This document shows, piece by piece, positions 22,258 to 36,100 of a DNA stretch of 36,100 nucleotides (positions within the stretch are counted from its first letter, which is position 1; every line of letters starts with the position of its first letter). The notes under the pieces are model-generated. The model was given only the letters and a program-made list of their open reading frames with translations. It ran no database searches and had not been told where the DNA came from. Both the position numbers and the translations under genes were made by a program. The DNA is from an uncultured Clostridia bacterium (GTDB lineage Bacteria > Bacillota > Clostridia > Christensenellales > CAG-917), in contig CAMVBZ010000004.1 in assembly GCA_947165815.1 (NCBI GenBank), forward strand, positions 1 through 36,100, given 5' to 3'.

Positions 22258-22260
22258 TTA

Positions 22261-22363
22261 GGAAACAACAAAGTACGAGGGGCGGCTGGATCACCTCATT
22301 CCAAATACAGGTGGTTTCCCAAGTATAGCAACATATAGTTCAATTTTATTATTTATTTGGAGG
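22261..22363 (+). promoter_or_regulatory. Candidate structured regulatory leader of rpsM containing a copy of the 16S rRNA 3'-terminal sequence
   Basis: GCGGCTGGATCACCTC at 22282-22297; complementary segments GGAAAC/GTTTCC (22261-22266/22314-22319), GAGG/CCTC (22277-22280/22294-22297), CACCT/AGGTG (22292-22296/22309-22313), CCAAAT/ATTTGG (22301-22306/22355-22360, overlapping the rpsM SD). Confidence 0.45.
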
Positions 22364-22370
22364 ACAAAGT

Positions 22371-22748
22371 ATGGCACGTATTGCCGGTGTGGATTTACCA
22401 CGCGAAAAGAGAATTGAAATAGGTCTAACATACATTTATGGTATTGGCCTAACAACATCAAAGAAGATACTCGCTGAAACAGGTGTTAACCCAGATGTTA
22501 GAGTTAAAGACTTAAGCGAGAACGATGTAACACTCATAAGAGATTACATTGAAAAGAATTTACACGTCGAAGGTGATCTTAAGAGAGAAGTTTCGATGAA
22601 TATCAAACGTTTAGTAGAAATTGGCTGCTACAGAGGAATTCGTCATAGAAAGCACCTCCCAGTAAGAGGCCAAAGTTCAAAGCGCAATGCTCGTACAGTT
22701 AAAGGAAAGAAGAAGACTGTATCTAAGGGCAAGAAAGCAGGCAAATAA
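22371..22748 (+). CDS. rpsM: 30S ribosomal protein S13
   Basis: [41 protein letters not shown] at 22359-22363. Confidence 0.98.
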
Positions 22749-22762
22749 GGAGACTTTAAATT

Positions 22763-23137
22763 ATGGCAGAAGTTAAGAAGAGTACTAGAAAAGTTGAAAG
22801 AGGAATTGCACACGTACATTCTTCATTCAATAACACAATAGTAACAATCACAGATACAAATGGTAATGCAGTATCATGGTCATCAGCAGGTAAGTTAAAG
22901 TTACGTGGTAGCCGTAAAGCTACACCATTTGCAGCACAAAGCGTAGCAGAAGAAGCAGCAAAGGTTGCATACGATAAAGGAATGCGTTTCGTTGAAGTTT
23001 ATATCAAGGGACCAGGCCAAGGTCGTGAATCAGCAATCAGAGGCTTAGCAAATATGGGATTAGAAGTTACACTCATTAGAGACGTATCACCAATTCCACA
23101 CAATGGATGCCGTCCACCAAAGCGTAGACGTTTGTAA
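22763..23137 (+). CDS. rpsK: 30S ribosomal protein S11
   Basis: [44 protein letters not shown]. Confidence 0.98.
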
Positions 23138-23155: not shown

Positions 23156-23779
23156 ATGAAATATACAGGACCAGATTGTCGTCAATGCAGACGTGAAGGA
23201 TGCAAGTTATATTTAAAAGGTGCTCGTTGTAATTCAGAAAACTGTTCATTCGATCGTAAGAAGAGTGCTCCAGGACAACACGGAAAGGGAAGAAAGAAGC
23301 AATCAGGATATTCCCTCCAATTACGTGAAAAACAAAAAGCAAAGCGTATCTATGGCTTAACAGAAAAGCAATTTGAGCTTTACTACAGAAAAGCTACAGA
23401 AATGAAAGGTGTTACTGGTGAATTAATGCTCGAATTACTCGAAAGACGTTTAGATAATGTTGTATATCGTCTTGGATTAGGTGCATCAAGAGCAATGTCC
23501 CGTCAAATCGTAACACACGGACACATCACAGTTAATGGAAAGTTAGTTAACATTCCATCATACCTTGTAAAGAAAGGTGATGTAATTGCAGTTAAAGAAG
23601 CACACAAAGAATTCAAAATGTTCGATGAAATTAAGAAGGAAAAACAATTATCTCTCAAATCTTGGTTATCATTTGATAATGCAACATTAACAGGAACAGT
23701 TGTTGAACTTCCTACAAGAGCAGATATCGAAGATGTCGAAATCAAGGAACATCTTATTGTCGAGTTATATTCAAAATAA
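23156..23779 (+). CDS. rpsD: 30S ribosomal protein S4, cysteine-containing (zinc) type
   Basis: MKYTGPDCRQCRREGCKLYLKGARC...; RLDNVVYRLGLGASRAMSRQIVTHGHITVNG. Confidence 0.97.
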   Translation: MKYTGPDCRQCRREGCKLYLKGARCNSENCSFDRKKSAPGQHGKGRKKQSGYSLQLREKQKAKRIYGLTEKQFELYYRKATEMKGVTGELMLELLERRLDNVVYRLGLGASRAMSRQIVTHGHITVNGKLVNIPSYLVKKGDVIAVKEAHKEFKMFDEIKKEKQLSLKSWLSFDNATLTGTVVELPTRADIEDVEIKEHLIVELYSK

Positions 23780-23799: not shown

Positions 23800-24756
23800 A
23801 TGATGGAACTCAAAAGACCAGAAATCAGATTAGAAGAAAGCGAAGACAAGAGTCAAGCAAAGTTTATTGTAGAACCATTAGAACGTGGCTTTGGTATTAC
23901 ATTAGGAAACAGCTTAAGACGTATCTTATTAGCATCATTACCAGGTGCAGCAGCTGTTGGTGTAAAAATTTCTGGTGTAGACCACGAATTCTCATCAATT
24001 AAGGGAATCAAAGAAGAAGTCACAGAAATCATCCTTAATCTCAAAGAAGTACGTTTCAAGGTATTAGGTGACACAGACAATTTCAAGAGAGCAGAATGTC
24101 ATTTATCATCCAACAAAGTTGGTGAAGTATATGCAAGCGACATTCAACTTGCTCCTGGAATCCAAGTTCTCACACCAGACAAGCTTATTTGCACAATAGA
24201 CGATGGTGGAAAGATTGATATGACTATTTATGTAGATTGTGGACGTGGCTGGGTACCAGCTGAAAGAAACAAGACTGCAAAAGATCCAGTTGGATACATT
24301 TCAATGGATAGTTTATTCACACCAGTCGTAAAAGCAAACTTCAACGTTGAGCCAACACGTGTTGATAAGAGTATTGACTATGATAAGCTCACAATCGAAG
24401 TAACAACAGACGGAACAATTTCTGCAAAAGAAATCATTTCATTAGCAGCAAAAGTTATGAGTGATCACGTAAAACTCTTTGTAGAATTAGACGAGAATAT
24501 GTCAAATGGAAACGTCTTTGTAAAGAAGCAAGAAAGTGAAGAGACAAAGGCACTTGAGATATCAATAGACGATTTAGAGCTTGGTGTTCGTGCATACAAC
24601 TGCTTAAAGAAAGCAGGTATCCACAAAGTATCTGAACTCATTAAGATGTCCGAAGATGATATCATGAAGTTACCAAACCTCGGAAAGAGATCATTAGATG
24701 AAATTATTAATAAATTAGCTGAATTAGGACTTTCATTGAAGTCCTCAGAGGACTAA
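23800..24756 (+). CDS. rpoA: DNA-directed RNA polymerase subunit alpha
   Basis: FIVEPLERGFGITLGNSLRRILLASLPGAA; alpha-CTD LELGVRAYNCLKKAGIHKVSEL. Start may be 23803 (ATGATG). Confidence 0.98.
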   Translation: MMELKRPEIRLEESEDKSQAKFIVEPLERGFGITLGNSLRRILLASLPGAAAVGVKISGVDHEFSSIKGIKEEVTEIILNLKEVRFKVLGDTDNFKRAECHLSSNKVGEVYASDIQLAPGIQVLTPDKLICTIDDGGKIDMTIYVDCGRGWVPAERNKTAKDPVGYISMDSLFTPVVKANFNVEPTRVDKSIDYDKLTIEVTTDGTISAKEIISLAAKVMSDHVKLFVELDENMSNGNVFVKKQESEETKALEISIDDLELGVRAYNCLKKAGIHKVSELIKMSEDDIMKLPNLGKRSLDEIINKLAELGLSLKSSED

Positions 24757-24769
24757 TTGGGAGGCAAAT

Positions 24770-25276
24770 ATGAATAAGAAATTAGGTAGACCTACAGACC
24801 AAAGAATGGCTGTTATACGTAACCAAACATCTGAGCTCTTATGGTATGGCCGTATTGAAACAACACGTGCACGTGCTAAATCAGTAAGAAGCGAAGCTGA
24901 AAAGATAATTACACTTGCAATCAAGACATATCAAGACGAAATTAAAGTTAAGAAGACAAAGACAGATGCAAAGGGTAATAAGAGCGAAGTTGAATTCACA
25001 AACGATGGAGCAAAGAAACTTGCAGCACGTCGTAGAATTATGGCTACATTAGTAGATATTCCTGAAATTAAGAAGGAAAAAGAAAGCAAAAAGAATTTTG
25101 TTGCACGTATCAAGGATATCAAGAATCCATTAGTAGAGAAGATCTTTACAGAATACGCACCAAAGTATGACAAACGTGCACAAGATAAAGGTATCGGCGG
25201 TGGTTATACACGTATCATCAATAAAGATGTAAGACGTGGCGATGCAGCTGAAATCGTAATCTTAGAATTAATCTAA
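24770..25276 (+). CDS. rplQ: 50S ribosomal protein L17 with internal Lys-rich insertion(s)
   Basis: MNKKLGRPTDQRMAVIRNQTSELL...GRIETTRARAKSVRSEAEKIITLA...GGYTRIINKDVRRGDAAEIVILELI; 168 aa. Confidence 0.95.
   Translation: MNKKLGRPTDQRMAVIRNQTSELLWYGRIETTRARAKSVRSEAEKIITLAIKTYQDEIKVKKTKTDAKGNKSEVEFTNDGAKKLAARRRIMATLVDIPEIKKEKESKKNFVARIKDIKNPLVEKIFTEYAPKYDKRAQDKGIGGGYTRIINKDVRRGDAAEIVILELI

Positions 25277-35313: not shown

Positions 35314-36100
<787 letters not shown>

Follow-up and report, generated by a model that had tools for sequence, protein, structure and literature searches.

A conserved bulged hairpin was found in the spacer between rpmJ and rpsM of the window, a stretch of 36,100 nucleotides from an uncultured Clostridia bacterium, and sequence comparison indicates that a hairpin of this kind before a ribosomal-protein operon is a real feature of many Clostridia. 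Comparison of related genomes showed that the hairpin is conserved and covaries, that it stands before rpsM and that it is linked to the position of the S4 gene. From these we infer S4 binding and translational repression: the spacer is probably an r-leader of the alpha operon (rpsM-rpsK-rpsD-rpoA-rplQ), in which free S4 would bind the bulged hairpin and repress translation. The original prediction had read the spacer, which lies before S13, S11 and S4, as a copy of the 16S rRNA 3′ end and thus as a new rRNA-mimicking autoregulatory leader, an anti-SD decoy or a fossil rRNA insertion. As a candidate leader it stands; as a mimic of the 16S 3′ end it does not.

A covarying hairpin before rpsM

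As originally noted, the rpmJ-rpsM gap was 113 nt (22258–22370) and unusually long for the operon, the neighbouring gaps being 11–20 nt. The parts of the leader and the genes concerned are as follows.

22267–22338, +, entire conserved element of the leader (R1 covariance-model match)
22273–22281, +, P1 5′ strand, GTAC-GA-GGG (fold; covariation in 16 sequences)
22282–22288, +, invariant bulge GCGGCTG, the conserved core and 5′ half of the apparent 16S identity (conservation in family and class)
22289–22296, +, P2 5′ strand GATCACCT, a variable covarying stem and 3′ half of the apparent 16S identity (relatives' alignment)
22297–22308, +, apical loop CATTCCAAATAC (alignment and order-wide model matches)
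22309–22316, +, P2 3′ strand AGGTGGTT (fold; covariation)
22318–22326, +, P1 3′ strand, CCC-AA-GTAT (fold; covariation)
22355–22363, +, rpsM Shine-Dalgarno (SD) region ATTTGGAGG (candidate pairing with the apical loop at 22355–22362)
22371–22748, +, rpsM (S13), first gene of the alpha operon (gene reading)
22763–23137, +, rpsK (S11) (gene reading)
23156–23779, +, rpsD (S4), third operon gene, encoding the most likely ligand (gene order; ligand comparisons)
23800–24756, +, rpoA (gene reading)
24770–25276, +, rplQ (L17) (gene reading)
35314–36100, 16S rRNA gene, truncated at the contig end (rRNA search of the assembly)

The leader is a long single hairpin in the order P1, GCGGCU(G) bulge, P2, loop, P2′ and P1′. 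It is interrupted on the 5′ side at the invariant bulge, and its 3′ strand is near-continuous. When 27 rpmJ-rpsM spacers of relatives were compared, the common part was GCGGCTG; CATTCC, which lies in the apical loop, was shared as well in the window's family and in much of the order. The stretch between the two motifs is variable and base-pairs with a later strand. It had been considered that relatives might carry unrelated, unconserved spacers here; a conserved core with covarying helices was found instead.

The covariance model proposed in the original prediction was built from 16 sequences (R1), and its alignment contained two 7-bp helices. The bulge GCGGCTG was unchanged in 16/16 family sequences, and compensatory changes on both sides were observed at 14/14 pairs. 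Paired cells amounted to 87.8% vs 32–47% with the partner strand slid by 1–3 columns, and the covariation score was 0.71 vs 0.34 for shuffled alignments. An independent RNAalifold prediction returned 12 of the same pairs. The fold of the window leader itself was no more stable than its shuffles, with z of 0.08 for the spacer and −0.83 for the hairpin. R1 matched 22267–22338 with 61.5 bits (E 8e-17) as the sole match in the window's genome, the window leader being one of the 16 sequences from which the model was built.

In the order, R1 matched 44/297 genomes, with rarely more than one match per genome and almost all matches before rpsM; the structure is thus conserved, covarying and consistently upstream of ribosomal-protein genes. 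At class level this order-specific model fades. A class-wide covariance model was set aside because MAFFT misaligned the 3′ strands, and a two-helix hairpin descriptor scored against shuffles was used in its place. GCGGCTG was found upstream of rpsM in 48/85 Clostridia genomes (0.4 expected), as frequent in these regions as the commonest rpmJ-coding heptamers, and the hairpin was better than shuffled flanks (p ∼0.05 or less) in 41 of these 48 leaders. The bulge, the near-continuous 3′ strand and P2 recur throughout the class; the sequences of P1, P2 and the loop change, and the distance from the hairpin to the rpsM start ranges from about 20 to nearly 300 nt. Among class genomes whose operon includes rpsD, ∼40% are without the element. 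A separate element, ATATA[AGT]A, was observed 5–25 nt 3′ of P1 in order- and class-level rpsM leaders (15/46 class leaders, 3.1 expected).

Resemblance to the 16S rRNA 3′ end

The 16-mer GCGGCTGGATCACCTC was located exactly at 22282–22297 (+) as predicted, and no other match to it was found in the window even with 3 mismatches allowed (0.04 expected). Its claimed 16/16 identity to the 16S 3′ end was confirmed in the complete 16S genes of four other Clostridia/Bacilli genomes, the window genome's own 16S being cut at the contig end and its assembly being without any 16S 3′ end; the identity holds because all four genes share the 3′ end TGCGGCTGGATCACCTCCTTTCTA. An assembly artefact, which had been named as a possible ground for dismissing the 16-mer, was excluded because a sister species (G001) carries the same leader, with one change within the 16-mer, C to T.

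Relatives largely refute the reading of this match as a 16S mimic or fossil. What ∼45 relatives have kept of it is no more than GCGGCTG (class-wide) or GCGGCTGG (in most of the family). The half reading ATCACCTC forms the 5′ strand of P2; it is unconserved beyond the genus, covaries with its partner AGGTGGTT, and is replaced within the family by GTTGCATC, GCCGCG, GTCGTCT and others, with the partner strand changing too. Because both strands are replaced together across the family, this half is part of a stem rather than a copy of rRNA. The likeness to 16S had been suggested to extend upstream (AACAAAGTACGAGGGG vs 16S AACAAGGTAACCGTAGGGG), but this part was unconserved even in close relatives beyond the genus.

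What speaks for a 16S 3′-end mimic, an anti-SD decoy or a fossil rRNA insertion is the 16/16 identity in the window genome, together with the core GCGGCTG itself, found once and exact in the 16S 3′ end of 4/4 genomes checked. Against this, chance predicts ∼0.09 occurrences of any given heptamer in one 16S; the structural contexts are unlike, GCGGCTG being in the paired 3′ strand of h45 in 16S and in an unpaired 5′ bulge in the leader; among relatives only GCGGCTG(G) is kept and the remainder is a covarying stem swapped freely with its partner; and the rpsD leaders of Bacilli carry the same element without the extra 16S match. The three readings are therefore highly improbable, and the 16S 3′-end match is a coincidence built on the conserved bulge, with eight conserved bases and eight matching by chance.

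S4 binds the 5′ domain of 16S rRNA and not its 3′ end. Mimicry of the S4 site in h18 (CGGCUAAC in a 5′ bulge) was also considered, and is kept only as a lead because the likeness to Bacilli loops was in most cases no better than that of shuffled sequences (fractions 0.05–0.54). Overall, rRNA mimicry by the leader is unsupported.

Candidate ligand and mode of action

In the window and in 89/91 class-level loci, rpsD is the third gene of the operon, and the leader lies in the 5′ UTR of an S4-encoding mRNA. Gene order alone cannot pick the ligand, because nearly all class genomes have the order rpsM-rpsK-rpsD-rpoA. Lineages that differ in the place of rpsD were compared; the counts below are not independent and are inflated, because the Clostridia and Bacilli samples hold related genomes and the independent lineages are few (the clostridial family f56, Alicyclobacillales, Paenibacillus, Brevibacillus and Hydrogenibacillus).

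In f56, the GCGGCTG leader was found in 6/7 genomes with rpsD in the operon. Among the five genomes whose rpsD lies outside it, the element was lost or decayed in four: two had lost it, and two (G678 and G686) had GCGGCTG on P1 with P2 missing. The fifth (G327) had a complete but weak hairpin, with a shuffle fraction of 0.17. Movement of the element to a stand-alone rpsD within f56 was considered and rejected; the lone GCGGCTG before rpsD in G684 was left uncounted because no hairpin forms there and the sister genome has GCGGTTG instead. Two f56 genomes, G679 (L236, L246) and G680 (L235, L247), have an operon rpsD plus a divergent stand-alone rpsD of 42–45% identity, and are possible intermediates of S4 relocation.

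Alicyclobacillales are Bacilli whose alpha operon includes rpsD; here the hairpin was found at rpsM in 22/30 genomes. In the ten Bacilli with a separate rpsD, the element was found before rpsM in 0/10 and GCGGCTG in the rpsD leader in 9/10; in 7 of these 9 the helix that carries it outscored shuffles (p < 0.05). The one rpsD leader without it was that of Thermoflavimicrobium dichotomicum (L393). The Paenibacillus rpsD leaders (L385–L391) share, besides the GCGGCTG hairpin, TGGGCGTA(A)C ... GTGTCACCCTC. No element was found before rpsM in either of the two mycobacteria scanned (0/2). The only gene common to the rpsM and rpsD contexts of the element is that of S4, and in B. subtilis the rpsD leader mediates repression of rpsD by S4 itself (PMC10931766). 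By these comparisons, S4 is the most likely ligand.

A genuine r-leader might instead answer to S13, S11 or an S13:S11 complex, rpsM and rpsK being the genes nearest to it; 3/5 f56 operons without rpsD also retain GCGGCTG on a helix before rpsM. But 2 of these 3 remnants have lost P2, and Bacilli keep rpsM-rpsK together with the element there in 0/10 and on the stand-alone rpsD leader in 9/10, which makes S13 or S11 an unlikely choice.

With S4 as the ligand, S4 in excess over 16S rRNA would bind the bulged hairpin as free protein, and rpsM and the downstream genes would be translationally repressed. Repression might be achieved by blocking the rpsM SD region, possibly through base pairs between the apical UUCC loop and GGAG; SD blocking is our leading idea for the route but a guess. 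The loop TTCCAAAT (22299–22306) can pair with the SD at 22355–22362, with 8 pairs in the window's genus and a duplex of −9.4 kcal/mol in the window genome. The own-vs-swapped test of this pairing was not significant (p = 0.07 in the order, 0.14 in the class), and the loop-SD pseudoknot is put forward as a candidate. No intrinsic terminator was found in the window leader.

The location at the rpmJ/rpsM operon boundary would also suit a hairpin for processing or stability, dividing a long ribosomal-protein transcript into two parts and having no ribosomal-protein ligand; with a hairpin-rpsM spacing that varies from about 20 to nearly 300 nt, direct action on the SD is not required. Such a hairpin, however, would have no need of an invariant unpaired heptamer, and it would leave the element in stand-alone rpsD leaders unexplained. 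Furthermore, a predicted promoter (TTGnnn/TATAAT, extended −10) was found between rpmJ and the hairpin in 16/38 long spacers of the order (8.5 expected); given this promoter just upstream, the element would head a separate transcript in many order members and therefore be a 5′ UTR element. We regard a stability hairpin as distinctly improbable, and an S4-responsive leader remains our preferred reading.

Comparison with known S4 leaders

An S4 r-leader of rpsD in Firmicutes (Bacilli) was reportedly described by Grundy and Henkin and by Deiorio-Haggar et al. in 2013. The window element resembles it in that the GCGGCUG hairpin occurs in 9/10 Bacilli rpsD leaders read, B. subtilis itself not being among these ten. 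It differs in standing before rpsM rather than rpsD, and in having a full P2 beyond the bulge, whereas the Bacilli leaders have P1 and a GCGGCUGA loop with little or no P2. The rRNA-like conserved part of the Firmicutes S4 leader has been reported as GUAA (PMC7247131); no GTAA was found in the window leader (22258–22370). According to this 2020 survey, which cites earlier work on the point, Clostridia lack the Firmicutes S4 leader; the S4 leaders that it found there were only of the RF03140 type (PMC7247131).

RF03140, the S4-Clostridia r-leader of Eckert and Weinberg 2020 (PMC7779021, PMC7247131), likewise stands before rpsM-rpsK-rpsD-rpoA-rplQ and has the same predicted ligand. In contrast to the window element, it consists of two adjacent hairpins, GAAAG...CUGGGU...ACCCCAAU, without GCGGCUG. 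It was above cut-off in 1/118 class genomes, the model matching G329, and gave no match in the window or in 78 further relatives' loci, mostly rpsM/rpsD leaders, at E up to 0.5–5. Other rpsM leaders were also observed. In family f48 (L122 in G428, L123 in G379, L136 in G353 and L153 in G319) a different conserved leader, GGAGCAGGGTCAGGC ... GGGTGAAATTCTGCTCC, without an RF03140 or GCGGCTG match, is possibly another r-leader. In family f34 (L087 in G305 and L146 in G398), CCTGTCTATATCACnCC ... GnGTGACGGAAGATAGGAG was found just before the SD, and the 3′ strand of its conserved hairpin runs into the ribosome-binding site.

In E. coli, the alpha operon is under repression by S4 acting at the rpsM leader (RF00140, Alpha_RBS). 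The window leader would share S4 control of this operon at the same place, and a ribosome-binding-site pseudoknot is conceivable in it too. RF00140 was below its gathering cut-off in every locus scanned (best 35.2 vs 38 bits), and in its best alignments the match is largely to the SD and the rpsM start. No Rfam 15 family matched the element at cut-off, which is weak evidence of novelty because the Bacilli S4 leader is likewise absent from Rfam. The open-access literature searched held no description of the hairpin; an earlier one in Deiorio-Haggar 2013, Meyer 2018 or Yao 2007 is possible.

According to a 2024 review, rpsD lies within the alpha operon in Clostridia and outside it in Bacilli, for reasons unknown. 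We tentatively suggest, as a possibility short of a preferred view, that the GCGGCUG hairpin may be an ancestral Firmicutes S4 operator, located before rpsM in Clostridia and Alicyclobacillales or before the relocated rpsD in other Bacilli; in the window's order, UUCC loop-SD pairing upon S4 binding might bring about entrapment like that in E. coli, though by an unrelated RNA. If so, a single RNA module would have followed the S4 gene through the Firmicutes, a large share of Clostridia would gain a concrete, testable operator for control of the alpha operon, and the element would supply a missing Rfam family. Compared with these known systems, the element is ordinary in kind, an r-leader of the S4 type, and new in its variant and distribution.
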